This document shows, in pieces, positions 17,352-41,589 of a stretch of 64,000 nucleotides of DNA. This DNA is from Roseateles oligotrophus. Lineage in GTDB: Bacteria; Pseudomonadota; Gammaproteobacteria; Burkholderiales; Burkholderiaceae_C. The position numbers were made by a program, and so were the translations under genes. The notes under the pieces are model-generated. The model worked only from the letters and a program-made list of their open reading frames with translations. It did no database searches and was not told where the DNA came from. Position 1 is the first letter of the stretch; each line of letters begins with the position of its first letter. Location of the stretch: the NCBI RefSeq assembly GCF_014204525.1, contig NZ_JACHLP010000002.1:558001-622000 (forward strand), in the 5' to 3' direction.

Positions 17352-18671
17352 ATGAGCAAGAACAAAGCCCCCGCCAAATCCGCCGCCGCCAAGCCCGAGC
17401 TGGACCTGAGCGTTTATATGAAGGAACTGGGCCTGGCCGCCCGTCGGGCCGCCGGCCTGATGGCCGCGGCCCCCAGCGACCCCAAGAACCGGGCCTTGCT
17501 GGCCCTGGCGCGGCGCCTGCGCTCGGCCGGCAGCGGCCTGGCCAAGGCCAATGCCAAGGATGTGGCCGCGGCCAAAAAGGCCGGTCTGGCCGCGCCAATG
17601 GTGGACCGGCTCAAGCTCACGCCGGAGATCATCGAGACCGTGGCCCTGGGCTGCGAGCAGATCGCCGCCATGCCCGACCCTGTCGGTGAAATCAGCGGCC
17701 TGAAGCGCCGGCCCAGCGGCATCTCGGTCGGCCAGATGCGCGTGCCCTTGGGCGTGTTCGGCATGATTTACGAGAGCCGCCCCAATGTGACCATCGAGGC
17801 CGCTTCGCTGGCGATCAAGAGCGGCAATGCCTGCATTCTGCGCGGCGGCTCCGAGGCCATCCATTCCAATCTGGCCCTGGCCGAGATCGTCTCGGCGGCC
17901 CTGGCCGAGGCGGGTTTGCCGACCACGGCCGTGCAACTGATCAAGACCACCGACCGTGCCGCCGTCGGCCTGCTGATCACCGCGCCCGAAGCGGTGGACG
18001 TGATCATCCCGCGCGGCGGCAAGAGCCTGATAGAGCGCATCAGCGCCGAGGCCAAGGTGCCCGTGATCAAACATCTGGACGGCAACTGCCACAGCTATGT
18101 GGATGCCGAGGTGGACTTCGACCTGGCGCTCAAGGTCATCGTCAATGCCAAGACGCAAAAGGTCAGCCCCTGCAATGCCACCGAGTCCTTGCTGGTGCAT
18201 GTGGAGAGCGCGGCCGATTTCCTGCCCATCATCGGCCACCTGCTGGCCGACAAGGGGGTGGAGCTGCGCGGCTGCCCGCGCACGCTGGCCTTGCTGGGCC
18301 CGATCAAGGGCGCCAAGATCCGCGCCGCCAGCGAGGCCGACTGGAGCGAGGAGTACCTGGCGCTGATCCTCAGCATCAAGGTGGTGGACAGCCTGGACGA
18401 GGCGATCGAGCACATCAACCGCTATGGCTCGCACCACACCGATGCCATCCTGAGCAGCAACCACGCCAACGCCATGCGCTTTTTGCGCGAGGTCGATTCG
18501 GCCAGCGTGATGGTCAACACCAGCACCCGTTTTGCCGACGGCTTCGAGTACGGCCTGGGCGCCGAGATCGGCATCTCCACCGACAAGCTCCACGCTCGCG
18601 GCCCCGTCGGGCTGGAGGGTTTGACTTCCTTGAAGTGGGTGGTGCTGGGGCAGGGGGAAGTTAGGCGCTAA
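17352..18671 (+). CDS. proA: Glutamate-5-semialdehyde dehydrogenase (gamma-glutamyl phosphate reductase)
   Basis: 439 aa from the ATG at 17352; an in-frame ATG lies 18 bp upstream. This is the second step of proline synthesis, the NADPH-dependent reduction of glutamyl-5-phosphate. The aldehyde-dehydrogenase-like catalytic Cys is in [12 protein letters not shown] (about residue 275), and [11 protein letters not shown] and [20 protein letters not shown] are ProA signatures. The first 15 residues are a Lys/Ala-rich extension. Its TAA stop overlaps the stop of the convergent last eCIS gene. Confidence 0.96.
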
Positions 18672-19153
18672 GCCAACAACTTCCCCAATCTCCCCAACTC
18701 CCCTCCCAATAACTTCTGCATCTCCTCCAGCTGCGCCGCCGCCGTCTCGGCGGCTTTTTGGTCGGCGCTGGCTTGCTCGCCTGCTGCGTCCAACTGTTTC
18801 TTCAGCGCCGGGTCGGCGTCCTGCAGGCGTTTCAATGCGGCGCTCTTGAACAAGGTGGTGAGGCCCTGGCGTTCGGTTTTCAGGGTCTCGACCTGGCTGC
18901 GGGCGCGTTGATTCAGGGCGCTGAGGCTGCTGGTGGCGCGGGCCTGGAAGTCGTCCCAGCTGTCGGTGGCCAGGGCTTTGCCATCGCCCAGCTCGGCGCT
19001 GTCGGGCAGCAAGAGAACGCTGCCGGGCGCGAGCTTGTTCAGGTCCAGGTGGGGGTTGAGCTTTTGTGCCTGGGCCAGGGTGGCGGCGTTGCCGCTGATT
19101 TTCTTTGTTAGCGCCTGCAGATCGGCGGCCTTGTGGAGCTGGATGAAGCGCAT
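18668..19153 (-). CDS. LysM-like / coiled-coil protein, last gene of the eCIS operon
   Basis: 161 aa. Residues 8-52 look like a LysM-type fold (a run ending [19 protein letters not shown]). The rest is alpha-helical with heptad-like Ala/Leu/Gln spacing and is probably a coiled coil. There is no signal peptide. It lies 12 bp after the beta-helix gene and ends against proA. LysM-like domains serve as baseplate/tube adaptors in contractile tails, but here the position at the end of the operon suggests an accessory or fibre-related role. The function is not known. Confidence 0.6.
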
Positions 19154-19165
19154 GATGCGAACCCT

Positions 19166-22100
19166 CTAAGCGATCAGATTGAGAACCTGCATCTCGGGCT
19201 TGAGCGGCGCCTGGATGCTGCGGGTGGTGATATTGCCCAGGGCCGCGACCTGGGCCTTGGCGTCGGGCACGCGGATGGAGACCTCGCCGCCGCGCACGCG
19301 GTTGGCGTTGACCAGGGCCACGGGCGTGTCCAGCAGCACCACGACGGCGCTGTTATTGGCGCGCAGCTCGCAGCGGTTATCGCTGAACAGCAGCTCGCCG
19401 GCAGCGGCTATCAATACGGCCGAAGTGCGGCCACGCGCGTTCAGCGCATTGCCCAGCACCGAGGCGCGTGCACCCTCACCGGCCAGCAGGGCGGCGTCGC
19501 CCACCAGCTTGCGCGCCTGGCGGATGAAGGCGCGGCCGCCCACCATGACTAGGCTGCGGCGCTCGTCCAGCTTGAAGGCGCGCTGGCGGCCGATCAGATT
19601 GAAACCGCCGTTATCGCCCAAGCTCGGGTCGCCCAGCAAGAGCGCTACACAGCCGAGCCGGCTCTCGGCCTCGCTGCTTTGCTGTTCGCGCTCCACCTGG
19701 TTGCCTTGCACCTCGGCCTGCTCATAGGGCGAGCGCAGGGCCAGGCCTATCAAAGCACCGGCAAAGCCGCTGGCCGCCTCGTCCTGCGGGCCCACATCGC
19801 TGACAACGTTGTGCAGCAGGCGCGGCTGGGCCACGTCAAAGCCATAGATGCCGGCCACCAGCTGCTTGTCCTGGCCGGCTTGCAAGCCGATGGCGCGCAG
19901 GCTGTTGCCGGCCACCGTGACCTGCTCGCTGCGCTGCAAGCCTATGCCCAGCAGCATGCGCTCCTTGTCGTCGGCGCTGGCGCCGGCCACGGCGTCGATG
20001 GCGCTGATCTGGTTGTTCTCAATCACCAGGGCGCGGGCGCTGGCGCCCTCGCGCATGAGGATGCCATTGCCGCAATGGTCAATCAGATTGAGCTTGATCA
20101 GCAGGGCCGAGACGGGCGCGGTGATCAGGATGCCGGCCTCGGCAAAGCCGCTGATCTGGTTGGCCAGCACCTGGGCCTGGTCGCTGCCGGTTTTGTCCAG
20201 GCCTAGGGCTAACTCGATCCCTGCACCGGCCAGCACGCGCTCGCCGTCGCGGCTGGCGCGCAGCTTGTTTTGGCTGATCCAGGCGCCGTCTGTTGCGCAG
20301 CGTATGCCGCTGCCATGCACATTGAGGTGGTTATCGCAAAGGCGCAGGCTGGCGCCGGCGGCGCTCAGGCCCTCGGCGGCCAGGCCGACCTCGTGGCAGT
20401 TCAGCACCTGGTTGCCGCTGATGCTGCTGTCCAGCAAATGGGCGACGGCACCGCTCAGGCGCAGGCCGGCCGTGCTGCAGCTCATCAGGTTGTCGCAGAT
20501 GCGCAGGCCGGCGCTGATCAAGGCCCGGGGCGCGCCCTCGGTATTGGGCTCCAAGGCCTGGATGCCGGTGGGCGCGAGGATGAGGTTGTGGCTGATCTCG
20601 GTGGCGGCCACCAGGCCGCTGAGCGCAATCGCCGGGGCGCGGAAATCGCTATTGGCCAGCACCAGCAGCAGCAGGCGCTGCAGGCGCAGGCCCAGCACGG
20701 TGCGCACGGCGATGGCGGGCGCGCGCGCCAGCGACAGCAGGCTCAAATCCTCGATGGCGATGGCGGCGCTGCCTTCGATCACAAAGGCCGAGCCGGCCGT
20801 GATGAGGCGGCTGGCGGGGCCCTGGCCGTGGATGCGCAGCGAGCGGGCGCCGGCGATGCGAACGGGCTCGTTCAGCGTGTAGTCGCCCTCGTGCAGGCAG
20901 ACCGTGCCGCCGCTGCTCATCACCCGGTCCACCGCCGCTTGCAGGGTCAGGCGGCCGCTGGCATGGGACTCGGGCGTGACGCAGGCTGTACACATGCAGT
21001 CGCCGCCCTGGGTCTCGGGCGGCCAGGGGTGGCGGCAGTCGGACACGCTGGCCGCGCCCACATCCCAGAGCCCCAGGCGGGCGTAATGGTGGTGGATGCC
21101 GCGCGGCGGGGCGCGGTCCAGAATCTCGACCGAGGCATCCGCCGTGCGGGCGGCAAACACCCAGTAATCCCCGCTTTTGAAGCCGCGCCCGCTGGGGTCT
21201 GACACGCTGAATTCAACGGTGATGCCATGCTCCAACATCAGCTGCACGCCGCTGGCCGGCACGGGAATAGCGCCCGTGGCCGTGGCGGCGTCCAGGTCAT
21301 GCACTTGCACCGGCACGCCGCTGGCGTCGGTACGGAAGACCTTGCCCGCCTGGTCCCAGCGCCGCACGCGCAGATGGCGCTCGTGGGCCTGCGTGCTGTC
21401 GGGCAGGGTGGGGGGCAGCAGGTCGGCCGGCAGGGCGGGGGCGAAGCTGAGGCGGCGGGTGGCGTCGTCCACGGTGATGCGGCGCAGCTCGCCGGGGCGC
21501 TGGTCCAGCTCGCGCCAGTCGTCGGTGATTTCCACCCAGTCGCCGCTGTTGAAGCGCAGCAGCTCGTCGCGGCCCAGCGTGTCCAGCTCCAGCACCGTGG
21601 CCGACACCACGCTGGCCACGCCCGAGCCCACGCTGGCGTTCTCGCGTGACCATTTGAAGCTGGCCGTGCCCGGCTGGCCGGCCTCGTGCACCTCCACGCG
21701 GTAGAGCTGGTTTTCCAGGCCGCGGTAGCCGCCGGTGGGGGGCAGCTCGCAGGGATTGTCGGCCGGGGCCACCTCGTAGCTGCCGGTGCTCAGGCGTCCG
21801 CTGGAGGGGGCGGATAGCGCGCTCCAGCCGGGCAGCGTGGCGTCGGGTGTGGCGCAAGTGCTGCCGCCGGCGTCCTCGGGCAAGACGCGCACCTGCCAGA
21901 CGGTTTGCTGGCGCGAGCTGGTCTCCACGCCCAGGGCGATTTCCACCAGCTCCGGCCGCTGCAGATGCGTCAGCTCGCGCTGCCACACATCCAGGTAGAC
22001 CAGATGCCGCCCGGCCGTGGGCAGGGGCGCGGGCCGGGGCCAGTAGGGCTGGTTTGCATAACTGAGCGGGTCGGCGTACTGGGGCTCGGCCAGCAATGGG

Positions 22101-22408
22101 TCGAACAGGCGTTGGGCGGCCAGCAGGGAGGGCGCGCCATGGTTCTCGGCCAGCAAGCCGTCCACATAAAGCCGGCCCTTGGCGATCTGCAGGCCGCCGG
22201 CCACGGCCGTGATCTTGAAGGCCAGGGGCGTGGTGCTGGAGACGGTGGCGGGGCCCAGGATGTCGCTGGCCAGGGCGCGCAGGCGCCGGTCCAGCAAGGC
22301 CACCAGCTCGTTGGCATCGCCGTCCAGCAGCACGGCGCCTTGCTTGAGGTTGAGGCCGGCAAAGTCCAGCAGCGGGTCGAAGCGGACGCGGGAGAGATCG
22401 GTGCTCAT
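19166..22408 (-). CDS. Giant eCIS protein: DUF6519-like N-terminus plus parallel beta-helix
   Basis: 1080 aa. The N-terminal ~430 residues (starting RVRFDPLLDFAGLNLKQG, then YLDVWQRELT and FKWSRENASVG) match what I recall of a DUF6519-type domain seen in phage-tail-like clusters. A Cys-rich linker follows (DCMCTACVTP, about residue 470). From there to about residue 1050 the chain is a run of short repeats with buried Ile/Leu and Asn turns, typical of a right-handed beta-helix like those of phage tailspikes. It is likely a fibre, receptor-binding or baseplate-decorating part of the injection system. The start is 11 bp after the gpI-like gene. Confidence 0.72.
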   Translation of the reverse strand: MSTDLSRVRFDPLLDFAGLNLKQGAVLLDGDANELVALLDRRLRALASDILGPATVSSTTPLAFKITAVAGGLQIAKGRLYVDGLLAENHGAPSLLAAQRLFDPLLAEPQYADPLSYANQPYWPRPAPLPTAGRHLVYLDVWQRELTHLQRPELVEIALGVETSSRQQTVWQVRVLPEDAGGSTCATPDATLPGWSALSAPSSGRLSTGSYEVAPADNPCELPPTGGYRGLENQLYRVEVHEAGQPGTASFKWSRENASVGSGVASVVSATVLELDTLGRDELLRFNSGDWVEITDDWRELDQRPGELRRITVDDATRRLSFAPALPADLLPPTLPDSTQAHERHLRVRRWDQAGKVFRTDASGVPVQVHDLDAATATGAIPVPASGVQLMLEHGITVEFSVSDPSGRGFKSGDYWVFAARTADASVEILDRAPPRGIHHHYARLGLWDVGAASVSDCRHPWPPETQGGDCMCTACVTPESHASGRLTLQAAVDRVMSSGGTVCLHEGDYTLNEPVRIAGARSLRIHGQGPASRLITAGSAFVIEGSAAIAIEDLSLLSLARAPAIAVRTVLGLRLQRLLLLVLANSDFRAPAIALSGLVAATEISHNLILAPTGIQALEPNTEGAPRALISAGLRICDNLMSCSTAGLRLSGAVAHLLDSSISGNQVLNCHEVGLAAEGLSAAGASLRLCDNHLNVHGSGIRCATDGAWISQNKLRASRDGERVLAGAGIELALGLDKTGSDQAQVLANQISGFAEAGILITAPVSALLIKLNLIDHCGNGILMREGASARALVIENNQISAIDAVAGASADDKERMLLGIGLQRSEQVTVAGNSLRAIGLQAGQDKQLVAGIYGFDVAQPRLLHNVVSDVGPQDEAASGFAGALIGLALRSPYEQAEVQGNQVEREQQSSEAESRLGCVALLLGDPSLGDNGGFNLIGRQRAFKLDERRSLVMVGGRAFIRQARKLVGDAALLAGEGARASVLGNALNARGRTSAVLIAAAGELLFSDNRCELRANNSAVVVLLDTPVALVNANRVRGGEVSIRVPDAKAQVAALGNITTRSIQAPLKPEMQVLNLIA

Positions 22409-22419
22409 GGTTCTTATCC

Positions 22420-24498
22420 TCAGCTGGCGTAGAAGAGCCCGGCGTGCAGGCCGAAGCGCAGGTATTCATCCAGGCGCAGGCGCAGATTGCTTTCGCGCTG
22501 GGGCTGGTAGAGGCTGTGCAGCACGCCCATCTCGCTGCCGTCGTCCGCGCCCTCCAGCAAGGCCTTGCCGCTGGCGCGGCGCAGCTGGCCGTAGGCGGGC
22601 TGGCCATAGCGCAAGCTGGTGAATTGAGGCAGGGCATTCGGCTGCTCGGCGCTGGGCTGGCAGTGGTGGCGGCGCGGGGTGATGGCGCCGGGCGGGATGT
22701 AGGAGAAGCGCACACAGCCCTCTTGCCGGCGCTGGGCCAGCACGGGGTGGGACCAGGTTTCAAGCGGGGCGCTTCCTAAGCGGGCGTACAGAATGCTGTT
22801 GGACACCAGGCGCAGAATTTGCGCGTGGACCTTGCCGATGACGGTGCACTCCTGCAGCGTCAGCTCGGCCCCGGCGCTGCCGCTGCCATCACCATCAAAG
22901 GCGGTGTTGTGGGGCGCGCAGGCGTCGATGATGCAGTCATGCGCTTCCACCGTGGCGCCGGCCACCACCTGCAGCGGGCCGCAGATGCAGCGCTCCAGCC
23001 TGAGCTTGGCAAAGGGGTGGAGGATGCGCAGGCTGGGCTGGCCGGCCTGGGCGGGTGTGCCGTCTGGGTTCAGCGTCAGGCCCGGCACCAGGGTGCAGTC
23101 GCGCAGGATCAGCTCGCGGGGTTCGTCGTCCGCGCCCAGGGGCAGGACCAGGGCGCCGCCGCTGATCACCAGGCCTTCCAGCACGAGCTGGGCGCGGGCG
23201 CCCAGGGCCAGCGTCATGTCGCCGCTGGCGGCCAGCAGCGGGCGGCAGCCGGCGTCGGCGCTGATGACGACTTGGTGGCCGCTGGCGCCGGCCGTTAGCA
23301 CGGCGTCGATCTGGATCGTGGGCGTCTGGGCATAGCGCAGGCTGTCTTGCACCTTGAGCCGGCCGCCCTGGCGCAAGGCGTCCAGCTGGGGCTGCCAGGC
23401 CAGGCCCTGGCTGACGCTGCGCTGCTCGCTCAAGTCGGCGCCGCTGGGCAGGCGCGGGTATTCGCCGCCGCCGATGAGGCTGGGTTGGCCGTAGTGGAAG
23501 GTGGCGAGCAAGGGGCCGTCGGCACTGGCGCCCAGCAGCACGCGGCCGCGCTGCGGGTCCAGGCCGATCTGGCCGGGGAAGACGTCGGCCTCGTGGTTCC
23601 AGCCGACCACATTGCCGCCGGCATCCAGCATGTCGCGCAGATCGCAGATGCGGATCTCGTTGATGCTGACCGGCGTGGCCGGGGGGCGCATCAGCAGCAG
23701 GCTCAAGCCCGGGCCGTAGTCTTGCGCCAACTCCTTGCTCAGCAGGCGGATGTTCAAGGCCTCGGGCACATTGGCGGGCCGGGCCAGCTGGCTGATATCG
23801 GTCTCGGGCTCGGCATCGCGCCAGAGCTGGATATCGGCCCCTAAGGGGTTGACCCGCCAGCGCCGGCCGTTGGCGTCCAGGGGGTCGGGCTGCAAGGGCA
23901 GGGCCGTGAGCCGCAGGGCCAGCAGGCGCCACAGAAAGATGCCGATGTTCGGGATGTTGTAGCGGCCCGAGCCCGCCTCGGGGCGGCGCATCTCGGCCAG
24001 GTGGGTGGTGGCGTTGAAGGCGCTGTCCAGGCGCAGCAGGGCTTGGGTGTTGCGCAGATCGGCGCTGGCCGGGGCGTGCAGGCGCGGGTGGCGCATATGC
24101 TGGCTGGTGGCCAGTTGCTCAAAAAACTCCACGGCATGCGCCGGCCAGCCGCTCACATCCTGGGCCAGCTCTTCCAGCATCAGGGCCGTGCCCTTGCGGC
24201 GCCGGAAGGCGATGGTGTGGGCCACCTCGGCGCGCGGCGAGGCCACCTTGGGCACCACGCCATGCAAGGGCCGGTAGCCGATCAGATCGCCGATATAGGG
24301 CGCCACCCAGTCGGCGCAGGTCTCGATGAACTGGTCGTCCAGCAGCTGGTCCAGGTCTTCTTCCAGCACCTCGATCTCGCGCGCCAGCACGGCGATCAAG
24401 GCTTGCAGCGGCCCGCCCTGCTGGGCATCGCGGATGCGGTGGACGGCAGGCAGCAGCTGGTAGAGACGCTCGGCGGTGGGGCTTGGGTTCATCTTCAC
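22420..24498 (-). CDS. eCIS baseplate protein, gpI-like N-terminus (Afp12-type candidate)
   Basis: 692 aa. The N-terminal ~170 residues (LLPAVHRIRDAQQGGPLQAL, then EVLEEDLDQLLDDQFIETCADWVAPYIGDLIGY in parts) resemble phage tail protein I (gpI) and the equivalent eCIS baseplate protein. Residues ~360-620 carry short beta-strand repeats rich in Leu, Val and Gly that may form a beta-helix or beta-sandwich decoration. The C-terminus repeats the pattern LRLRLDEYLRFGLHAG. It would help join the wedge to the fibre. It is preceded by a 308-bp structured gap. Confidence 0.7.
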   Translation of the reverse strand: MKMNPSPTAERLYQLLPAVHRIRDAQQGGPLQALIAVLAREIEVLEEDLDQLLDDQFIETCADWVAPYIGDLIGYRPLHGVVPKVASPRAEVAHTIAFRRRKGTALMLEELAQDVSGWPAHAVEFFEQLATSQHMRHPRLHAPASADLRNTQALLRLDSAFNATTHLAEMRRPEAGSGRYNIPNIGIFLWRLLALRLTALPLQPDPLDANGRRWRVNPLGADIQLWRDAEPETDISQLARPANVPEALNIRLLSKELAQDYGPGLSLLLMRPPATPVSINEIRICDLRDMLDAGGNVVGWNHEADVFPGQIGLDPQRGRVLLGASADGPLLATFHYGQPSLIGGGEYPRLPSGADLSEQRSVSQGLAWQPQLDALRQGGRLKVQDSLRYAQTPTIQIDAVLTAGASGHQVVISADAGCRPLLAASGDMTLALGARAQLVLEGLVISGGALVLPLGADDEPRELILRDCTLVPGLTLNPDGTPAQAGQPSLRILHPFAKLRLERCICGPLQVVAGATVEAHDCIIDACAPHNTAFDGDGSGSAGAELTLQECTVIGKVHAQILRLVSNSILYARLGSAPLETWSHPVLAQRRQEGCVRFSYIPPGAITPRRHHCQPSAEQPNALPQFTSLRYGQPAYGQLRRASGKALLEGADDGSEMGVLHSLYQPQRESNLRLRLDEYLRFGLHAGLFYAS

Positions 24499-24806
24499 TT
24501 ACTCCATAGCGCCGTACGCCACCGATGGCGCATGAAACGGGCGAGGCCTCGGGCTGCGGGCGAAGGCGTCCACTCCATGCCAAAGCCCAAGGGCTTTGGC
24601 TCTCGCCAGGCATTGAGAGTCCACAGGACTCTCAATGTCCGGGCTCCATCCCCCGGGCGCTGCGCGCCCTCCTCCTTGACTTACGTGGCCGCCTCCACCC
24701 ACATCCCGAGGCAAACCAGCGCTGCTTGTTGCGGGCAAGCAGGGTGCCCCGCCGCCCTGCGTTGCCCGCATGTGCTCGCGCACTCGCCATTGGCTTTTAT
24801 TCAGGC
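24499..24806 (-). other. Structured intergenic gap inside the eCIS operon (three strong hairpins)
   Basis: 308 bp without a gene, in an operon whose other junctions mostly overlap. It holds three strong hairpins: GCCAAAGCCC/GGGCTTTGGC (24579-24600, 10-bp stem, loop AA), CATTGAGAGTCC/GGACTCTCAATG (24611-24637, 12-bp perfect stem, loop ACA) and a long one at 24730-24770 (TGCGGGCAA + GCAGGG pairing with CCCTGC + TTGCCCGCA, one bulge). They may adjust expression of the last three genes, act as a processing site, or be inserted repeats. Confidence 0.6.
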
Positions 24807-31189: not shown

Positions 31190-31209
31190 GAGAGATACGC
31201 CCTCGAAAT

Positions 31210-31291
31210 GCAACCACAGAGGCACAGAGTCACTGAGGAATGCAAGCTGAAGATCTTGTTCATCTCTGTGCCTCCGTGTCTCTGTGGTTGC
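31210..31291. repeat. Inverted repeat of the dispersed CACAGAGGCACAGAG type
   Basis: Left arm GCAACCACAGAG-GCACAGAG (31210-31229) and right arm CTCTGTGCCTCCGTGTCTCTGTGGTTGC-like sequence (31264-31291, given here as its arms) form an imperfect inverted repeat of 82 bp. The right arm carries an 8-nt insertion relative to the left. It lies in the 156-bp gap between the two spike genes. The unit resembles a short repeat I recall as dispersed in many bacterial genomes. Confidence 0.65.
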
Positions 31292-31345
31292 AATTGAATT
31301 GAAATTTCCCATGCGAGGGTGGGACGGAGGTATAGTCCAGCGGGC

Positions 31346-34373: not shown

Positions 34374-34579
34374 GCTGAGCCTCCTGGGTCGGCGGCGAAG
34401 GCGCGCTGGACTGCTAACGCAATCGCTGCGCGGGCTTCGGCCTGGGTGTCCGGCGCGGCGGCAATGCGCGGCGCGGCGCGCTGCACTTCCTGCTCTATGC
34501 AGTCCCGCAGCCGGGTCTGGAGCTGGGCCCAGTCTTGCGGGCCCCAGCTTTCGGGCAGTTCGATCTGGAGTTTCATCAT
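34370..34579 (-). CDS. Small eCIS-linked protein between ATPase and candidate cargo
   Basis: 69 aa from the ATG at 34579, which overlaps the ATPase stop (TGATG). GTG 34582 and ATG 34576 are alternative starts. Helical, with a run of Arg/Glu and Ala (RLRDCIEQEVQRAAPRIAAAP), and a single Cys. It overlaps the next gene by ATGA. No family is recognised. Its place next to the candidate cargo suggests a small chaperone/adaptor, but it could equally be a structural piece. Confidence 0.5.
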   Translation of the reverse strand: MMKLQIELPESWGPQDWAQLQTRLRDCIEQEVQRAAPRIAAAPDTQAEARAAIALAVQRAFAADPGGSA

Positions 34580-36519
34580 CACGCAGCCTCCTCACGGCAG
34601 GCCAGGCCGGGTGGACGGTCCAGCTTGGCGTATTCGCCACGGGCGGCTTGCAGCAGCAGGGCTTGGTGGATGGGCTGACCCAGTTCGGCGGCGCGGAAGG
34701 CTGCGGCCAGCACCACATTGCGGATATGGCCACCGCTGAGGTCCAGCCGGGCCAGGGTGGCGATGTCGATCTCGCCCAGCGGCGCGTTAGCGGGGAACTG
34801 GCGCTGCCAGATCAGCGCCCGGGCGGCAGCGTCCGGGAAGGGGAAGTTGACGATGAAGGGGATGCGGCGCAGAAAAGCCCGGTCCAGCGCGCTCTTCATA
34901 TTGCTGGTGAGTATGGCCATGCCGCGGTAGGACTCGATGCGTTGCAGCAGATAGGCCACCTCCAGATTGGCGTGGCGGTCATGGCTGTCCTTGACCTCGC
35001 TGCGCTTGCCGAACAAGGCATCGGCCTCGTCGAACAAGAGCAGGGCGCCGCCGGCCTCGGCGGCGTCGAACAGCTGCTTGAGGTTTTTCTCGGTCTCGCC
35101 GATGTATTTGCTGACCATCAAGGCCAGGTCGATGCGGTAGAGGTCCAGGCCTAACTCATGGGCGATGGCTTCGGCGGCCAGGGTCTTGCCGGTGCCGGAG
35201 TCGCCCGCGAACAGGGCGCACAAGCCCTGGCCGCGCGAGCTGCCGGCCCCAAAGCCCCAGTCCTCAAACACGGTGCGGGCCTGGCGCAGCTGGCCGGCCA
35301 TATCGCGCAAGGCCTGCATCTGGGCGGGTGGCAGCACCAGGCCGGCAAAGCCCTGCTTGGTTTCGATTCGCGTGGCCAGCTGGGCCAGGCCGGCCAGGCG
35401 GGCGCGGGCGGCTTGGGCGGCGGCGGGCCAGACTTGGGCCGGGCGCTCGGCCGCTGGGGTCTGCTTGAGTTGGCGACTCAGCTCGACTATGGCATTAGGC
35501 GCCAGGCTGAACTGCCGCGCCGCGCGGCCCAGCTCGGCGCGCAGATCCGGGAGTTCGTCGCCACAGGCTCGCAAGGCGGCCTCGGCGGCGCGGCGGCAGG
35601 ACTCAGCCGTGGCTTGCAGCTGCAGCAGGCGATGCGGTGTGGCTTGCAACAGGCCGCTGGGCGGGGCGCCTAACAGCAAGGCCGAGCTGTGCAGATGCTC
35701 GATCAGCCGGGCCAGGCGGGGCTCGTTCTCGCCCGCCCGCAGCAGGGGCCAGAAGCCCGTCAGCAGCGCCTCCCGGTCCAGCAGGCGGGCACATCTCAGC
35801 AGCTCGGCGGGCCCTTCGGGCAGGGCTTGGGCGTTCAGCAGCAAGAGGCCGCGCGGGGCCAGGGCCTGGCGGCATGTGGCCAGCAAGGCCTCCTCATGGC
35901 CGACGGGGGCTTGCAAGCAGATCAGCTGGGGGCCGCTTCTTTCCTGGCTGGCTTCGCGCAGGGCTTGTTGCAGCTCGGGCAGGGGCGCGGGGGCAGTGGC
36001 AGGGGCGGCGAGGACGCTGACGATGCCGTCCAGCAGGGTCTCGCGGGCTTTGACGCCGGCGATGTGATGCAGCAAGCGCTCGGGCATTTGCAGGGGCGAG
36101 TCGAGCAAAGCGCTGCCGGCCTCGATCAGCAGCCTGTTGCGCAAAGGCGCTTGGTTGGAGAGCGCGTCCCAATGCGGCTCGGGCAAGACGCTCATGGCCT
36201 GGCTGAAGCAGAGTGCTGTGGACGGCGGGAACAGCCGGCCCAGCAGCGTGCGCAAGCGCTGGTCCAAGTGCACACCGGCCAGCAGCAGCAGGAGCTGGGT
36301 TTCAAAGCCTGAGAGGCCGAAGCGCTGGCTGATGTTCAGCAAGGCCGGGCAAAAGCCGGCGGTGGCGGGGGGCAGCGGCTCGGCCGGTGGGTTGCGCCAG
36401 TCGGCGCCTGCCGTCAGCGCTTGCTCCAGGCGTTCTCGCAGCTGGGCCAAGGCCTGGGTGAGCCAGGCCTGGTTGAGCGTGGCCCAGTCGGCGTTGGTGA
36501 AGGCTTGCGGCGCATTCAT
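34579..36519 (-). CDS. eCIS AAA+ ATPase (Afp15-type)
   Basis: 646 aa. The C-terminal ~220 residues are an AAA+ domain: Walker A GDSGTGKT (about 439-446, Lys 445), Walker B LLFDEAD, and the sensor region ILTSNMKSALDRAFLRR. The N-terminal ~400 residues are helical and of the type seen in CIS/phage-tail ATPases rather than ClpV. The ATPase of eCIS is needed for assembly and possibly cargo loading. Its stop overlaps the small downstream gene, and its start overlaps the cap protein gene (ATGA). Confidence 0.9.
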   Translation of the reverse strand: MNAPQAFTNADWATLNQAWLTQALAQLRERLEQALTAGADWRNPPAEPLPPATAGFCPALLNISQRFGLSGFETQLLLLLAGVHLDQRLRTLLGRLFPPSTALCFSQAMSVLPEPHWDALSNQAPLRNRLLIEAGSALLDSPLQMPERLLHHIAGVKARETLLDGIVSVLAAPATAPAPLPELQQALREASQERSGPQLICLQAPVGHEEALLATCRQALAPRGLLLLNAQALPEGPAELLRCARLLDREALLTGFWPLLRAGENEPRLARLIEHLHSSALLLGAPPSGLLQATPHRLLQLQATAESCRRAAEAALRACGDELPDLRAELGRAARQFSLAPNAIVELSRQLKQTPAAERPAQVWPAAAQAARARLAGLAQLATRIETKQGFAGLVLPPAQMQALRDMAGQLRQARTVFEDWGFGAGSSRGQGLCALFAGDSGTGKTLAAEAIAHELGLDLYRIDLALMVSKYIGETEKNLKQLFDAAEAGGALLLFDEADALFGKRSEVKDSHDRHANLEVAYLLQRIESYRGMAILTSNMKSALDRAFLRRIPFIVNFPFPDAAARALIWQRQFPANAPLGEIDIATLARLDLSGGHIRNVVLAAAFRAAELGQPIHQALLLQAARGEYAKLDRPPGLACREEAA

Positions 36520-37865
36520 GGCGGCACCACCAGCTGCTGTGTCGGGTCATAAACCGGCGCCGGGCCGCTGAGGTCCAGCAAGAGGCTGTCTACCCCGTCC
36601 ACCCGCAGGCGCAGGCGCTGAGGCCCAGCGACCAGCGAGTCAGGGAATTCGAACTGCAGCGGCGCGCTGGCGTTGGTGCGCGGCAGGGCCGTGGCTTCCA
36701 TATCGCCCAGCATCAGCTGGGCGCTTTGCTGCGGCAGCACCTGGGGCCGGCAGTGCAGGGCGACCGTGACGCGGGCAGGCGCGCCGCCCCGGGCAAGGCT
36801 GGCGGCGGGCAGGCCCAGGCCGGCGTCGGCCGTGATGACGGCGTCGGGCGCCAGCAGCAGGGCCAGGCTATTGGTCTCGCGCGGCAGGGGCTCGCCCGTG
36901 GGCGTGAAGCGCAGGCGCAGGCTCCACAGGCCGGGGGCGTAGCGGCTTTGGTCGGCCAGCAAACCGGGCAAGGTGAACGTTAGCTCGGTGCCGGCCGCGT
37001 TGATGGCGCTGGGCGTCAGCAGTACCGGGACGGGCTTGAGGCGGTGAGTCAGCAGCAGCTGGTGGCCGCTGCCGGCCAGGCGTGCGCCTTGCAGCGTCAG
37101 CGTGTCGCCCAGGCGGGCGTTGGCTTGGGCCTTGGGCTGCAGCAGCTGCAGCAAGGTGGGCATGGCCGGCAGCATATCGGCGTGGACGAGCACGCCACGG
37201 TCGCGCCCGGTTCCCGGATCAATGGGGCCGCGCGAGAGCACGGGCAGGGCGCGTCGGCCGGGCTTGCTGCCCTCGATCAGCACGACCGAGATCAGATAGG
37301 CGGCCGAGGGGCGGTAATGGCATTGCAGGGCGGACCAGAGCTTGCTGGTGTCGTCCAGATTCGTCACGGCGGGGGTGATCTTGATCAGCTCCACCTGCTC
37401 GGCCAGGTCAGAGGCGGCGAGGGCCTGGAAGGCGGGCGGCAGCAGGGCGGTGTTGACGGGGTTGGACTGCAGGGCGCGGCGGATGGCGGCGCGGTCCAGC
37501 ACGGCGCGTTCGTGCAGCAGGTGCATGGCATAACCGAGCAAGATCTCGGCATGGAAATCGGCCTGGGCGTAGGCGGTGATCACATAGTGCAGGTCCAGGG
37601 CCAGCGGGGCATTGCTGAGGCGCTCGCCGCTGACGCTGCTGCGGCTGGGCAGGCCGTTGTTGCGCCAGGCGGCGTTGTGGCTGAGCTGGTGCAAAAAGAT
37701 ATTCAGCTGGGGGCTGGCCTGGGGGTCTTGCAGATTGATGGTGTCGGGTGCCACGGCCGTGACCTTGACCACATTGCCCACGGCCGCGCCGGCCTCGATC
37801 AAGCCGTTGTCCAGCAGATTGCGCAACACGGCGCTGACGGCGGCCACGGCCAGGGGCGAACTCAT
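36516..37865 (-). CDS. DUF4255 (Pvc16-type) cap/terminator protein
   Basis: 449 aa. The N-terminal ~190 residues (VAAVSAVLRNLLDNGLI, then LNIFLHQLSHNAAWRNNGLP, then LALDLHYVITAYAQ) are the DUF4255/Pvc16_N family that caps the distal sheath end in Afp/PVC. The C-terminal ~240 residues add an Ig-like beta-sandwich region (LLQPKAQANARLGDTLTLQG, and later LALLLAPDAVITA), larger than Afp16. It overlaps both neighbours by ATGA. Confidence 0.9.
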   Translation of the reverse strand: MSSPLAVAAVSAVLRNLLDNGLIEAGAAVGNVVKVTAVAPDTINLQDPQASPQLNIFLHQLSHNAAWRNNGLPSRSSVSGERLSNAPLALDLHYVITAYAQADFHAEILLGYAMHLLHERAVLDRAAIRRALQSNPVNTALLPPAFQALAASDLAEQVELIKITPAVTNLDDTSKLWSALQCHYRPSAAYLISVVLIEGSKPGRRALPVLSRGPIDPGTGRDRGVLVHADMLPAMPTLLQLLQPKAQANARLGDTLTLQGARLAGSGHQLLLTHRLKPVPVLLTPSAINAAGTELTFTLPGLLADQSRYAPGLWSLRLRFTPTGEPLPRETNSLALLLAPDAVITADAGLGLPAASLARGGAPARVTVALHCRPQVLPQQSAQLMLGDMEATALPRTNASAPLQFEFPDSLVAGPQRLRLRVDGVDSLLLDLSGPAPVYDPTQQLVVPP

Positions 37866-38560
37866 GACCGGCCTCCCGCGCTTTTGCGCTGGCGCAGATA
37901 GTCGGCCAGGGAGAGGGTGCCGCCGGGGCTGGGCCGGCTGGCTGGTGGGGGCGGCGGGGTGGCCTGGGGCTGGGCGGGCTGGAGCTGGATGTCGATGCGA
38001 CCGATGTGCAGTTGCAAGCTGAGAGGCGGCGGGCTGTGGTGCTGGCGGCGTGTGGGCGGCAGGGCTGTAGCGGGCCGCAGCGCGGTGTTGGGGGGGCGCA
38101 GTTGCGGGGTGACTGAGGGGGCTTGTTTGGCGATGGGCTCGAGGGCGAGGCTGGGGTGGCTGGAGGGCTCGGCCATGATGGCTATGCCTGACTGGGACAG
38201 CGGCTGTTCAGCTGGCTTGCGGACGATGGCGGGCAGGGCGGGTGTAGGCGGCGTGGGGCTATTGCGGGCTTGAACAAGGGCCTGGGCTGCTGATTCGACG
38301 ACCGCAGGGTGCCGCTCAGTCTGGGGGCTAGGCTTAGATGCAACGGGCGCTTGGGGCTTGCTGACAGGGCGCGGGCTGGCCTGGGGCGGAAGACGTATCT
38401 CAGGCAAGGACTCAAGCCCTTCCTCTGCCGCCACAGGCGCCGTCCAGGTCTGGGTGTAGCGGCTTTGCAGCCGGGGCCGCAGGGCCGCAGCGCCGCAGGC
38501 CGGGGCCAGGGCTTGCAGCCAGGCCAGCGCGGGCAGGGTTTGCAGCGCCGGCTTGTTCAT
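37862..38560 (-). CDS. Proline-rich eCIS-operon protein, unrecognised
   Basis: 232 aa from the ATG at 38560 (longer frames overlap the upstream gene). It begins with a short hydrophobic-aromatic segment (LPALAWLQALAPACGAAAL), followed by ~170 residues dominated by Pro, Ala, Ser and Gln, likely disordered. A short ordered stretch (LSLQLHIGRIDIQLQP, about 180-195) lies before the Pro run, and the C-terminus ends LSLADYLRQRK. It could act as a ruler, an anchor or a linker, but no function can be assigned. ATGA overlaps join it to both neighbours. Confidence 0.55.
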   Translation of the reverse strand: MNKPALQTLPALAWLQALAPACGAAALRPRLQSRYTQTWTAPVAAEEGLESLPEIRLPPQASPRPVSKPQAPVASKPSPQTERHPAVVESAAQALVQARNSPTPPTPALPAIVRKPAEQPLSQSGIAIMAEPSSHPSLALEPIAKQAPSVTPQLRPPNTALRPATALPPTRRQHHSPPPLSLQLHIGRIDIQLQPAQPQATPPPPPASRPSPGGTLSLADYLRQRKSAGGRS

Positions 38561-39288
38561 GCCAGCACCCCGCTGCTCAGCTGCAGATAGTGGCCGCGCC
38601 GCTGCGGGCTCATGGCCAGGATGTGTTCTTCGCTCCAGCCATAGGCCTGGGCCAGGGCCGCCACCTCGGCCAGCAGGCGCTCGGCCTCGGCGCGCAACTC
38701 CTGCCACAGCAGGGCGGCCGGGGCCAGCGGGGCCGACCAGGGGCGGGCGCAGTCGGGGCATTGCAGGGCCAGGCTGAGCTGGGCGGCGGGATCCAGCTGC
38801 TCCAGGCGCTGGGCCAGGGCCGTGCTCAGCGCCTCGGGCATGGGGCTGTCGTCGGGCGCTTGATAGTCCAGGATGCAGCGCTGCAGGAGCAAACGCGAAA
38901 ATTCGGCGGCGTCTTGCTTGGCGCTGGCGCGCACATCGTCAATGCAGGGGCGGCGGAATTGCAGGCGGTAACTGTCTACTTCCAGACACTGTGGAATATC
39001 CGGCTCTGGCTCGCCCAGCTGGGCCAGCAAGGCGGGGCAGTCCAGCTCAAATTCCAGCTCACTGGCGCAATGCGGGCAATCGGCCTGCAGGGCGATGTGG
39101 GGGCCCAGCAAGCGGGTGCGCAGGGCCAGCAGCGCCTTGTTGCGCTCGCCCAGGCCCTGGGGCAGATCCAGGTTTGCGTCTTGGCCAAAAGCCAGCAGCA
39201 AATCCTCCCGCCTCTCGGCCGATGCGCGGCCGGCCTGCTCCCAAAGATCGAGCAGGCGTGCGCCGAGCAGGGCGGAGTTGTCGAGCAT
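38557..39288 (-). CDS. T4-baseplate-hub-chaperone-like protein with paired CxxC motifs
   Basis: 243 aa. Two separated CxxC motifs (CPHC near residue 70 and CPDC near 183) may bind zinc. The N-terminus (RREDLLLAFGQDANLDLPQGLGERNKALLALRTRLLG in part) and the C-terminal helix (EVAALAQAYGWSEEHILAMSPQRRGHYL) match what I recall of the T4 gp26/gp51-like baseplate hub assembly family common in such operons. It probably assists hub assembly. It starts 6 bp after the tube stop. Confidence 0.65.
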   Translation of the reverse strand: MLDNSALLGARLLDLWEQAGRASAERREDLLLAFGQDANLDLPQGLGERNKALLALRTRLLGPHIALQADCPHCASELEFELDCPALLAQLGEPEPDIPQCLEVDSYRLQFRRPCIDDVRASAKQDAAEFSRLLLQRCILDYQAPDDSPMPEALSTALAQRLEQLDPAAQLSLALQCPDCARPWSAPLAPAALLWQELRAEAERLLAEVAALAQAYGWSEEHILAMSPQRRGHYLQLSSGVLA

Positions 39289-39294: not shown

Positions 39295-39819
39295 TCAAGC
39301 CGGCTCGGTGAAGCTGGGCTCGCTGGGTTCGCCCACCTCGACGTCGCGCTCCCAGCCCTCGTGCTCCAGCTTGATGCTCTGGATGGCGACGGCGTTGGCA
39401 TTGGCGTCCAGATCGGGCAGGGCCTGAAATTCGGACACCCAGGCGCGGAAGACCTTGTAGGCCAGCACCAGCTGGCCGGTCTCGTTATAGACCTCGATGA
39501 TCAGGTCTTTGCGGAAGTCTTTCAGCGAGACCTCGGCGCCCAGGCCGGCGCCGAAGTTCCAGACCTTGTTGGCCCATTGCTCGAACTCTTTGTCATGTGT
39601 GACGCCGCGCTCCAGCGTGATGGCCTCGAACTTGCTGCGGCCCGGTGATTTGCGGCCGGTGGAGGGGTCGCCGCCCTCGCGGTGCTCCACCACCTCGGTG
39701 CTGCGCTTGAGGGCCGAGACCTTGCTGATGCCGGCCACAAAGCGGCCGTCCCACTTGACCCGGAACTTGAAGTTCTTGTAGGGGTCGAAGCGCTGCGGGT
39801 TGACGGAAAACTGGGCCAT
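39295..39819 (-). CDS. Inner tube protein (T4 gp19/Hcp-like; Afp1/5-type)
   Basis: 174 aa, typical of the tail tube family. It begins with a short SD-preceded ATG (TGGAGA upstream); FDPYKNFKFRVKWDGRFVAGISKVSALKRSTEVVEHREGGD in part (NFKFRVKWDG..AGISKVSAL..STEVVEHREGG) is the conserved T4 gp19 pattern. The middle has ITLERGVTHDKEFEQW and the C-terminus a YKVFRAWVSEFQALPDL motif. It polymerises into hexameric rings inside the sheath. Only one tube gene is present. Confidence 0.94.
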   Translation of the reverse strand: MAQFSVNPQRFDPYKNFKFRVKWDGRFVAGISKVSALKRSTEVVEHREGGDPSTGRKSPGRSKFEAITLERGVTHDKEFEQWANKVWNFGAGLGAEVSLKDFRKDLIIEVYNETGQLVLAYKVFRAWVSEFQALPDLDANANAVAIQSIKLEHEGWERDVEVGEPSEPSFTEPA

Positions 39820-39841
39820 GAGAGTCTCCAGAAATAATGGG

Positions 39842-41323
39842 TCAGGTCGCCAGATCGCCAGCTATCTGCTGCAGCTTGAGCACCACGAACTCGGCCGGCC
39901 GCAGCGGCGCAAAGCCGACGATGATGTTGACGATGCCTTGGTTGATGTCCGCTTGCGAGGTCGTCTCGCCATCGCATTTGACGAAGTAGGCTTCGCGTGG
40001 CGACTTGCCCTGGAAGGCGCCTTGGCGGAACAGGCTTTGCATGAAGGCGCCGATGTTCAGCCGGATCTGCGCCCAGAGCGGTTCGTCGTTAGGCTCGAAC
40101 ACCACCCACTGCGTGCCACGGTAAAGACTCTCCTCGATGAAGAGGGCCATGCGGCGCACGGGCGTGTACTTCCATTCGGAGCCGCGGTCGTTCTGCCCAT
40201 GCATGGTGCGGCCGCCCCAGACCACATTGCCGTAGATGGGCAGGGTGCGCAGGCAGTTGATGCCCAGCAGATTGAGCGGGCCGTTCTCGGCATCGCTGAG
40301 CGTGGTGGCCAGACCGGTGGCGCCGTTCAGCGAGGCGTCCGAGCCGGCGGGCGCCTTCCACACGCCGCGCGCGCTGTCGGTGCGGGCAAACACGCCGGCC
40401 ACAAAGCCGCTGGGCGGGAAGCTGGCCAGGGCCATGTCTTGCAAGGGGTCGGGCGCCTTGACCCAGGGGAAGAAGATGGCCGAGTAAGAGGCATCCACCC
40501 CGGTCAGCGTGGCGGCGAGGCCTGCCCCAAGGCTGGTGGTGCTGGCGTTGGCGGGGGTGTCGGCAATCAGGAAGGCGCGGCGGTTCTTGCAATGGGTTTG
40601 CAGGGCGCCCAGTGTGGCGCCATCGGTCTCGCCGGGCACGACCAGCAGGTTGAAGAGGTCGATGCGGTCCGTCACCGAGCCCTGGCCGAACTGGGCCAGC
40701 AAGGCGGTCTGGAAGCCGGCCGTGCCGGGCGTTAGCACCGTGCCATCGGCGCCGGTGGCGAGGTTGTTGACGCCGGCCGCCGGCGGTGTGTTGGTGCCGA
40801 CGGTGACGCGCACAAAGGCCGATCGGTCGTTGATGACGCTGGGGGCGAAGCGCGGGTCGGCGCTGTTCATGGAGAGGTTCTCGAAGCTCTCCAGCACGGC
40901 GTTGCTGTGGTTGCGATCCAGCACATCGAGCTTGAAGCGGGCGGCGTCGGGTGCGGGGCGCAGGGTGATCTGGGCGGCCAGGCCGTCGCCCCACAGGCCG
41001 GGCGAGCTGGCATCAATCGTCAGCTGGCCCGTCACCACGCGCGAGGCCGCAGCCCCCGCGCCCAGCAGGCGCAGCACATAGGCGTCGCCGCCGCCGTTGT
41101 CGAAGAATTGCTTGACGCCATAGCTCAGCGGCGAGCGCCGGTCCAGCGGGCCGAAGCTGCGTTGGTAGTCGGAGAAATTGTGGATGCGCACGGCGCGGTC
41201 GCCGGGGCCGCGCGCGGCCCAGCCGACGAAGAGGGCGATGGAGGTGGGCACGCTGGCGATGCTGCGCACGCCACTGGCCACTTCTTCGATGTAGACGCCG
41301 GGGTAACTCAGTGCTTGAGGCAT
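39842..41323 (-). CDS. Contractile sheath protein (phage tail sheath family)
   Basis: 493 aa from the ATG at 41323, preceded by an AAAGGA ribosome binding site; an in-frame start at 41491 would overlap the upstream gene. N-terminus PQALSYPGVYIEEVASGVR and SIALFVGWAARGPGD are sheath hallmarks. The C-terminus (EPLWAQIRLNIGAFMQSLFRQGAF and YFVKCDGETT) and the final GFAPLRPAEFVVLKLQQ are the conserved domain that bears the contractile contacts. It is the only sheath gene, whereas Afp/PVC have several. Confidence 0.96.
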   Translation of the reverse strand: MPQALSYPGVYIEEVASGVRSIASVPTSIALFVGWAARGPGDRAVRIHNFSDYQRSFGPLDRRSPLSYGVKQFFDNGGGDAYVLRLLGAGAAASRVVTGQLTIDASSPGLWGDGLAAQITLRPAPDAARFKLDVLDRNHSNAVLESFENLSMNSADPRFAPSVINDRSAFVRVTVGTNTPPAAGVNNLATGADGTVLTPGTAGFQTALLAQFGQGSVTDRIDLFNLLVVPGETDGATLGALQTHCKNRRAFLIADTPANASTTSLGAGLAATLTGVDASYSAIFFPWVKAPDPLQDMALASFPPSGFVAGVFARTDSARGVWKAPAGSDASLNGATGLATTLSDAENGPLNLLGINCLRTLPIYGNVVWGGRTMHGQNDRGSEWKYTPVRRMALFIEESLYRGTQWVVFEPNDEPLWAQIRLNIGAFMQSLFRQGAFQGKSPREAYFVKCDGETTSQADINQGIVNIIVGFAPLRPAEFVVLKLQQIAGDLAT

Positions 41324-41589
41324 GGCTTGGGTCCTTTGTCGGGCGCGGGTAAGTGCCTGGGGTGTTCGGCGTGGAAGGTCAGCTGGCCGTCCGGCCCGCT
41401 GCGTGCTTGCATCTCGCCCCGCTCCACCAGCAGTTGCAGGGCCGCGGCCACCTCGTCCTGGGCTTCGATCAGGCGTTGCTGCGGGATCCACCAGGCGCAG
41501 ATGCCGTCCAGGGTGTCGCAGGCATCGGGCCGCGTGCCGATGTAGCGGCTGATGGTGTCTGCCAATGCCTCAAGCCTGTTGTTGGCCAT
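41308..41589 (-). CDS. Small first protein of the eCIS operon, winged-helix-like
   Basis: 93 aa, first gene after the promoter. Residues 15-75 (GTRPDACDTLDGICAWWIPQQ, then AALQLLVERGEMQARSGPDGQLTF) look like a winged-helix arrangement: helix pair, turn, and a beta wing with RSGPDGQL. Its stop overlaps the sheath start by 16 bp. It may regulate the operon or be a structural adaptor. I know no function, and the fold call is by eye. Confidence 0.55.
   Translation of the reverse strand: MANNRLEALADTISRYIGTRPDACDTLDGICAWWIPQQRLIEAQDEVAAALQLLVERGEMQARSGPDGQLTFHAEHPRHLPAPDKGPKPCLKH

Follow-up and report, generated by a model that had tools for sequence, protein, structure and literature searches.

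A contractile injection system operon of Roseateles oligotrophus with a likely sigma-54 control cassette and a candidate cargo gene

Genes of the operon

The window, i.e. the whole stretch of 64,000 nucleotides of Roseateles oligotrophus DNA that was analysed, carries a complete contractile injection system (CIS) of 21 co-directional genes (c01 to c21; positions 18668–41589, minus strand), each open from start to stop. This agrees with an earlier note on this DNA, which had described a 21-gene operon on a single strand: all 21 genes were found on the minus strand, and every one of the 21 ORFs is unbroken, with no frameshifted core gene. The true starts of the sheath, J2, spike, CIS_tube and cargo genes lie inside the longest ORFs.

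The profile searches gave strong matches (all genes here and below on the minus strand unless stated) for the single sheath (c02, 39842–41323; PF04984 and PF17482, with PDB matches), for the single inner tube (c03, 39295–39819; PF06841 3.4e-46, with PDB matches), for the tail terminator or cap (c06, 36516–37865; Pvc16_N, DUF4255, PF14065 6.5e-44), for an Afp15/Pvc15-like AAA+ ATPase with a winged-helix region (c07, 34579–36519; PF00004 4.6e-23, also PF22977 3e-8), for the gp5-like OB-fold spike (c14, 30671–31189; PF04717 5.7e-19), for the gp25 wedge (c16, 29953–30333; PF04965 5.7e-17), for the baseplate J-like protein J2 (c18, 24807–27401; TIGR02243 2.3e-66) and for a fibre (c20, 19166–22408) that combines a DUF6519 (eBAP5) anchor (PF20129 8e-40) with a right-handed beta-helix (PF13229 1.1e-7). 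PF04984 has one match in the whole genome. Moderate matches identified a T4_baseplate-like protein with two CPxC motifs (c04, 38557–39288; PF12322 2e-6, phrog_150), the CIS_tube adaptor (c11, 32849–33508; PF19266 1.3e-6) and the baseplate J-like protein J1 (c17, 27398–29956; PF04865 1.5e-6), while c12 (32485–32835) resembles the gp53-like baseplate wedge (phrog_7145 3.9e-6). Most of the core assignments of the earlier note were thereby upheld; the hub (c13, 31346–32470; weak VgrG_rel match, 46–90% identity in 12 relatives), the PAAR-like spike tip (c15, 30344–30661; sub-threshold PF05488, 41–92% identity in 12 relatives) and the gpI-like baseplate protein (c19, 22420–24498; weak PF10076 match, 0.0092, 32–81% identity, some of it partial, in 10 relatives) are weak by profile, and these putative assignments follow from gene order and conservation in relatives.

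The proline/alanine-rich linker protein c05 (37862–38560), with C-terminal HIGRIDI ... LSLADYLRQ stretches, belongs to no family in Pfam, NCBIfam or PHROGs; a similar protein occupies the same position in 8 of the 13 relatives examined. The last gene, c21 (18668–19153), combines a LysM/tail-X-like start with a coiled coil and is 63% identical to its counterpart in Paucibacter sp. KBW04 (G144), a second species of the genus. Two other genomes (G208, G082) end the operon with a gene of 163–166 aa that is similar by eye and gives no tblastn match to c21, and in G208 it has a sub-threshold Phage_tail_X match (0.0038). No tape measure family was recognised among the 21 proteins with Pfam, nor among 10 of them with NCBIfam and PHROGs. 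A 103-aa ORF at 24499–24810 was considered as an extra gene, but it sits in an insert absent from G144, where J2 and gpI are 9 bases apart, and is probably not a gene; the insert DNA has one other match in the genome, of 55 bases.

G144 possesses counterparts of all 21 genes in identical order, and up to 16 of the 21 were found in operon order in more distant family genomes (tblastn). The order is kept in 14 family genomes and in the named loci as far as these reach, with a different arrangement in locus L061. Since gene order is conserved in G144 and the family genomes, a chance arrangement is excluded. The operon is, with good confidence, an intact CIS of a Paucibacter-type bacterium that would be transcribed as one unit from a sigma-54 promoter. 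The CIS itself is of a known broad kind, while the control cassette and the cargo gene look new; searches for a CIS in Paucibacter or Roseateles returned no such paper among the matches listed.

Relationship to known contractile systems

According to the available text of the survey by Geller (2021; PMC8213781), an eCIS has at least 10 CIS core genes together, including at least one of the eCIS-specific Afp12, 13, 14 and 16, and neither capsid-type phage genes nor T6SS membrane genes nearby (10 kb). With Pfam and NCBIfam profiles in place of Geller's HMMs, the operon was found to contain sheath, tube, T4_baseplate, CIS_tube, spike, gp25, two J, AAA, Pvc16_N (the Afp16 type) and DUF6519 proteins. 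An associated eCIS_core (PF13699) protein was not found, and in the same available text it counts as a core domain but is no filter. The earlier note had regarded the locus as neither a prophage nor a T6SS, in view of missing capsid, portal, terminase, integrase and T6SS membrane genes, and the gene content of the operon and the scanned flanks bears this out: profile scans of the 21 proteins and of the 20 larger flanking ORFs revealed none of these genes, the latter being 17 ORFs with ordinary families and 3 without a family (Pfam). No lysis gene of the sort that a prophage or R-type pyocin would carry was recognised among the 21 proteins with Pfam. TssB/C, Hcp and TssJLM of T6SS are missing from the operon proteins too, the sheath is of the Phage_sheath_1 type, and the shared folds are gp25 and the spike alone.

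The system shares the cap, AAA+ ATPase, tube adaptor, spike, gp25 and J-like parts with Afp/PVC, but those have several sheath and tube genes, whereas the window has one each, together with a DUF6519 fibre, lower sheath scores and no recognised Afp14-like tape measure. Judged by the scores of the sheath and tube, the window CIS is nearer to the CIS of Streptomyces, haloarchaea and Anabaena/Algoriphagus than to Afp/PVC. The best solved sheaths are Cis2 of Streptomyces coelicolor (8BKY, 254.9 bits), from a CIS assigned to class IId in the available text of PMC10020575, and that of Halogeometricum borinquense (archaeal T6SS, 9EZM, 254.8 bits), with lower scores for Pvc2 (176.4) and Afp2 (146.6). 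The sheaths of the Anabaena tCIS (7B5H, 140.9 bits) and AlgoCIS (7ADZ, 136.9 bits) are farther away, while the window tube is equally close to the tubes of both (73.8 bits each). The haloarchaeal cluster lies on an archaeal plasmid and has DUF4157 effectors encoded mid-cluster, while the window belongs to a bacterial 678-kb contig without DUF4157; homologs of the tape measure, plug and crown are not reported for the archaeal system in the accessible part of PMC11566945.

Is the machine then docked or free? There is nearly an even chance that it is a membrane-docked or cytoplasmic CIS, either T6SS-like as in haloarchaea or with an internal role as in Anabaena and Streptomyces: its two nearest solved sheaths come from such systems (for Streptomyces, the available text of PMC10020575), no tape measure is recognised in the operon, and its control cassette is common to T6SS operons, but the fibre argues against this mode, and so does the Kyte-Doolittle hydropathy of the 21 proteins, none of which has a clear membrane-spanning segment (the best 19-residue means are 2.07 in the hub and 1.89 in gpI). 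A classical Afp/PVC-like particle, assembled in the cytoplasm, released by lysis and acting at a distance, is a serious possibility as well, though a somewhat doubtful one. The absence of recognised T6SS membrane complex genes from the operon and the scanned flanks is consistent with it, as are a tube as near to that of 7ADZ as to that of Anabaena, where 7ADZ is AlgoCIS, presumably an extracellular system, and a fibre anchor of a type catalogued in eCIS (DUF6519, eBAP5, a known fibre class in the available text of PMC12923769). On the other side stand the operon's lack of a recognised lysis gene and a sheath nearest to Cis2 and 9EZM, not to Pvc2 or Afp2, the 9EZM system being membrane-bound and likewise devoid of a tape measure homolog. 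A remnant of a prophage tail, suggested by the phage-tail homology of most parts, is refuted for practical purposes by the absence of capsid, portal, terminase and integrase genes from the operon and scanned flanks, by the gene order kept in 14 family genomes and by the CIS-type cap and AAA genes.

Sigma-54 elements and the bEBP and c01 pair

Just upstream of the operon, on the plus strand, lies a gene overlooked in the earlier note (41999–42985), which encodes a sigma-54 activator (bEBP) of 328 aa (PF00158 3.6e-61) with an AAA+ domain and a short Fis-like C-terminus. The Walker sites are present and a receiver domain is absent. The loop reads GAFTDA instead of the canonical GAFTGA, and GA[FY]TGA occurs in none of 40 other bEBPs of contractile machines vs 8 of the 10 paralogs in the same genome. 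Identity to the contractile-machine relatives is 42–55% (86% in G144) and to the paralogs 40–47%, which hardly separates the two groups; therefore the link with c01 and the tree were used, in which a branch with SH-aLRT 99 separates 34 contractile-machine bEBPs from the 10 paralogs.

The predicted regulon is complete on sequence, with the bEBP, an rpoN gene in the genome and, upstream of c01, a -24/-12 promoter-like site (TGGCACGTTTCTCGCA, 41629–41644, minus strand) recognised from the sequence and from relatives and kept in G144. Counting the window, 20 of the 24 entries next to a bEBP have a sigma-54-like site ahead of the sheath, vs 4 of 44 others. On the operon strand, such a site also precedes c01 in 40 of the 43 entries that have both c01 and bEBP; the opposite strand gives 2 of 43. 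The site weights follow a general sigma-54 consensus, but the count of GGC-N8-TGC is independent of them: this is the commonest dyad before c01 and occurs in 32 of 40 loci after thinning, the mean for the 54,118 dyads seen being 2.2. Fisher values take no account of kinship. A perfect 16-bp palindrome (CGACACAGCTGTGTCG, 41739–41754) some 95 bp before the promoter, part of which (CAGCTGTGTC) is kept in G144/L057, is a candidate activator site. The region ahead of c01 (41590–42000) also contains a conserved block (TGCTTATCCCCAAGGGTAGGGGCAAA); a comparison of the palindromes ahead of the promoter gave no single motif that recurs in every locus.

The first gene of the operon, c01 (41308–41589), encodes a wHTH-like protein of 93 aa from an undescribed family (consensus HPxAADTxEGIRxWW) found in neither Pfam nor NCBIfam, for which we propose the role of a co-regulator. 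Among the 63 loci whose sequence covers 3 kb or more ahead of the sheath, 23 have both bEBP and c01, 3 have c01 only (L084, L086, L090, with no bEBP seen nearby), none has the bEBP only and 37 have neither. The 299 family genomes contain c01 at 26 places, all but one of which (24 CIS, 1 T6SS; 25 in total) are beside a contractile machine. Two T6SS operons, G299 (locus L154) and G504 (L156), resemble the window in having bEBP and c01 ahead of the contractile machine, but there the machine is a T6SS: each operon encodes Hcp and a sheath of fused VipA/VipB, as well as TssF (by Pfam in L154 and by tblastn in L156). Of the three T6SS-linked c01 loci, L154 has a promoter site, farther out at -180, while L156, unlike the window, and L211 have none.

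Could c01 be a sheath or assembly helper that merely accompanies sigma-54-driven clusters and regulates nothing? This is conceivable, but we consider it rather improbable. Its place as first gene, its overlap with the sheath start by 16 bases, its absence from Pfam and NCBIfam and its occurrence without a nearby bEBP in 11 of 54 entries (some at contig ends, G077, G100 and G450 not) are points in favor of a helper, but in the 37 CIS loci without c01 and bEBP the remaining structural genes are retained within the limits of each locus, and c01 also stands ahead of T6SS sheath genes, which encode very different proteins. The bEBP and c01, a two-gene control cassette that occurs beside syringes of several types in many bacteria, are probably the on-switch of the operon. 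The bEBP would bind upstream, remodel the sigma-54 RNA polymerase and switch on the whole machine, and c01, as the first product, would tune this switch. The on-switch of most CIS is little known, and a sigma-54 cassette common to CIS and T6SS offers a concrete handle, while the c01 family would serve as a new marker of contractile-machine clusters. The available text of PMC8213781 names the regulators GerE, BTAD and RfaH, with "sigma" absent from its main text; sigma-54 control is not mentioned for the Streptomyces CIS in the available parts of PMC10020575 and PMC11126660; and a search for literature joining eCIS and RpoN found none, other wordings for eCIS under sigma-54 control yielding no such paper among the matches listed. 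The chances are about equal for and against a wider reading, in which one bEBP subfamily without the GAFTGA loop and its undescribed partner of 90 residues form a dedicated, portable cassette of contractile machines that was passed among CIS of the window type, other CIS and T6SS, and the CIS of the genus swapped the near-universal DUF4157 cargo system for a new cargo class (c09 and c10). A single signal would then call up different weapons.

The slot between the ATPase and the adaptor

In 63 of 68 loci with a complete slot, the place between the ATPase and the adaptor holds proteins like eCIS_core (PF13699), which we take to be DUF4157. This domain has no match in the genome under study or in G144, and three each in G208 and G082. 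The window slot holds c08 (34370–34579), c09 (33708–34373) and c10 (33505–33711). The small protein c08 sits where relatives have a small HIDRLVL protein; comparison of the two did not establish homology (E 0.02 with two sequences searched, 0.5% probability in hhalign). In c09, a low-complexity N-terminus of about 61 aa precedes a conserved domain of 160 aa, with no eCIS_core/DUF4157. It is present in 2 of 18 genus genomes, its own included. No homologs were found outside the two species among 238 loci, none in viral contigs and plasmids, and none in 398 phylum genomes beyond three weak N-terminal matches, one of them in its own genome; PDB matches are at chance level. Of four members that the earlier note had called unfamiliar, the beta-helix proved to be of the known DUF6519/eBAP5 class, the proline-rich protein recurs in relatives and the wHTH-like one belongs to the control cassette; the cargo candidate c09 is, as far as searched, the sole one peculiar to the genus.

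From its position, c09 is a candidate for the injected cargo. It might instead be a structural part, such as a plug of the tube lumen, a tape-measure substitute or an adaptor; this we hold to be unlikely. The Streptomyces davawensis CIS has a similar cargo slot directly upstream of the baseplate genes, which holds the tape-measure-related effector Tme (available text of PMC11126660; Tme carries DUF4157, a domain that the window genome does not have), and the window operon has no recognised tape measure; but the slot is otherwise variable, loci L124 and L136 show a small protein alone there, so that a structural part seems unnecessary in these loci, and c09 is restricted to 2 of 18 genus genomes. 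In the proposed mode of action, the AAA+ ATPase c07 would aid its loading into the tube, the baseplate of J, J, gpI, gp25 and hub would be the platform for polymerisation of the tube and sheath, which the Pvc16_N cap c06 would terminate, and attachment of the fibre c20 to a target surface would lead to contraction of the sheath, driving the spike and c09 through the target. Such a DUF4157-free system would be a test of whether DUF4157 is required for loading. The small protein c10, whose gene shares 4 bases with the end of c09 and another 4 with that of c11, may be a partner of c09 (chaperone or immunity protein), and the domain of c09 itself is under purifying selection (dN/dS 0.27).

A proposed sigma-54 cassette before contractile machines

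The operon, a 21-gene contractile injection system (CIS), is preceded by a divergent gene for a sigma-54 activator (bEBP; 41999–42985, plus strand; PF00158, 3.6e-61), outside the interval given in the earlier note. Between this gene and c01, the first operon gene, which encodes a 93-aa protein, lies a sigma-54-like site, TGGCACGTTTCTCGCA (41644–41629, operon strand), scored with weights that we set from the sigma-54 consensus. The site is retained with one spacer change in the congener Paucibacter sp. KBW04 (G144, which is also locus L057), and rpoN was found in the genome carrying the window. A 110-base element near the bEBP start (41853–41962), with 17-base terminal inverted repeats (AGCGGCTAACAAAACTC), is missing in L057 and looks like a MITE.

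The comparison was extended to the best 80 of 268 confirmed relatives of the cap protein (Pvc16_N, DUF4255), of which 67, plus the window, could be scored. At a cut-off of at least 0.91 of the maximum score, the site was found in 20 of 24 bEBP-adjacent entries vs 4 of 44 others (L063, L064, L081 and L124, the last with c01). A profile of c01 made from 14 sequences (the window and 13 of the 80 loci) matched 27 of these best 80, including all 23 bEBP loci. In 63 loci the sequence reaches 3 kb or more ahead of the sheath gene. Of these, 23 have both c01 and bEBP, 3 c01 only, none bEBP only and 37 neither (Fisher 3e-14), and the site is present/absent in 25/1 loci with c01 and in 4/33 without (Fisher 2e-12); both values ignore kinship, with many Nitrospira loci present.

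Genome-wide searches, whose first-look step can miss weak matches, identified c01 in 25 of 299 family genomes (26 places) and gave four matches in 398 phylum genomes. Seven of the family places precede operons of the window type and 17 precede other CIS types; at one (G027) a divergent T6SS operon is ~2 kb away, and one of weak score (G221) has nothing recognised nearby. The three phylum matches from other genomes precede T6SS genes (G299, G504) or another CIS (G450). Pfam confirmed the T6SS assignment: L154 (G299) has a VipA-VipB fusion, Hcp and TssF, L156 (G504) has the fusion and Hcp, and L211 has Hcp. A bEBP lies within 4 kb in 43 of the 54 c01 entries, which contain duplicates (L027 = L070, L028 = L075, L197 and L198 from one genome, L083 and L085 near-identical). 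The site is on the operon strand in 40 of these 43 (not in L156, L205 and L030) and on the other strand in 2 (L083 and L085, a perfect match there); it is also found in 7 of 11 c01 entries without a nearby bEBP, and in L154 alone of the three T6SS-linked entries. In a matrix-free test of the 160 bases before c01, 54,118 three-base dyads were seen, and GGC-N8-TGC occurred in more entries than any other (32 of 40: the window and 39 others, the 15 dropped being duplicates, near-copies, or L211 and L212, which have no CIS, bEBP or site).

A quick bEBP tree (no mixture model) covering 34 contractile-machine activators and 10 paralogs of the window's genome, but no VasH or PspF, separated the two sets by one branch (SH-aLRT 99). 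The 34 come from window-type CIS (19 loci), other CIS types (13) and T6SS (2), and machine types are interleaved on their side. The GA[FY]TGA loop occurs in 8 of the 10 paralogs and in none of 40 contractile-machine bEBPs (GAFTDA 24, GAYTSA 11, others 5), nor in the window bEBP. The c01 protein matched no Pfam or NCBIfam family at a meaningful E-value; we infer that it is a co-regulator, and the earlier note had suggested a putative wHTH fold. Three CIS loci under the same bEBP and c01 cassette (L199, L202, L206) have tubes 61–62% and sheaths 52–58% identical to those of the window, and in two of them the cap is only 29–31% identical.

Operon integrity, chromosomal place and machine type

Twenty-one open, tightly packed genes with no internal stops lie on the minus strand between 41589 and 18668; the one-strand operon described previously holds, with unbroken core genes. 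Profiles support the sheath, tube, T4_baseplate, cap, AAA, CIS_tube, spike, gp25, two J-like and DUF6519/beta-helix assignments, and add a gp53-like wedge and a TIGR02243 match for J2; profile evidence for the hub, PAAR and gpI is weak, and these three are supported by gene order and conservation. The sheath is the single Phage_sheath_1 match in the whole genome (5.3 Mb, 67.8% G+C; window at G000:C2:558001-622000). A dispersed ~95-base hairpin repeat (49 matches genome-wide, many being one place on both strands) sits in the stretch that separates hub from spike (31190–31345), which are 9 bases apart in G144. A 308-base insert between J2 and gpI (24499–24806), missing from G144, contains a 103-aa ORF that is probably not a gene.

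A cap search matched 21 of 299 family genomes: 14, among them the window's own, have an operon of the window type with its genes in the same order, either complete or truncated where the contig or the retrieved stretch ends, and 7 gave weak matches within more distant CIS clusters. G144 has all 21 genes (34–99% identity) and the same neighbours (proA and a DUF4139 gene); in more distant family genomes at most 16 of 21 were detected (tblastn). The proA-queC spacing is 1.1 to 5.7 kb in 8 of 10 congeners examined vs 26 kb in the window; in the other two, queC was not seen within the stretch retrieved. The operon is thus either there or missing at a single chromosomal place. Consistent with the earlier exclusion of a prophage, a Pfam scan of the 20 larger flanking ORFs revealed ordinary or unnamed genes. 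Nearby are a BLUF blue-light sensor gene (46000–46422), adjoining folE and lemA, and, ~8 kb from the operon, a sensor kinase (weak NtrY-like N-terminus) with a response regulator carrying a Fis-type HTH (49340–52353). The relative L061 departs from the other loci: there the AAA gene and CIS_tube flank the sheath, tube and T4_baseplate genes.

Against solved structures, the tube scored equally (73.8 bits) with 7B5H (Anabaena) and 7ADZ, which we take to be AlgoCIS. The best sheath scores were those of 8BKY (254.9 bits), 9EZM (254.8) and 8BL4 (245.8), followed by Pvc2 (176.4), with Afp2 at 146.6. The available part of PMC11566945 identifies 8BKY as Cis2 of S. coelicolor and 9EZM as the H. borinquense sheath, and describes the H. 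borinquense CIS as acting bound to the cytoplasmic membrane and lacking plug, tape measure and crown homologs. We therefore do not regard "extracellular" as established for the window CIS. The beta-helix gene, previously listed as matching no known Afp/PVC part, encodes the fibre c20, which fits eBAP5 (DUF6519), a class of 658 genes with frequent C-terminal beta-helix folds according to the part of PMC12923769 available.

The slot between ATPase and adaptor

In relatives the gap between AAA+ and CIS_tube mostly holds proteins like eCIS_core (PF13699, DUF4157): the best 80 of 268 loci include 68 with a complete slot (12 incomplete ones excluded), and in 63 of these a custom-built profile found such proteins, the exceptions being L057 (this genus), L116, L124, L136 and L128. 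HELxH-type proteins occupy 11 of 12 family slots read, the twelfth being G144, and PF13699 has no match anywhere in G000 (the window's genome) or G144. The window slot consists of c08, c09 and c10, whose stop and start codons overlap from gene to gene. The 160-residue domain of c09, present in 2 of 18 genus genomes (G000 counted), shows a dN/dS of 0.27 between the two species, vs 0.55 for the c09 N-terminus and 0.69 for c08. Because of its slot position, its low-complexity leader and the parallel with S. davawensis, where Tme occupies the same place (available part of PMC11126660), c09 may be read as a candidate cargo. A small protein alone was seen in the L124 and L136 slots. L116, a Variovorax CIS, has a 315-residue Ala/Gly-rich slot protein with an FHTHT stretch and no Pfam family (13516–14460 and following), with a small downstream partner judged by eye, and the DUF4157-free slot of L128 (9288–10571) holds a clostripain-family protein (Peptidase_C11, 7.5e-53).
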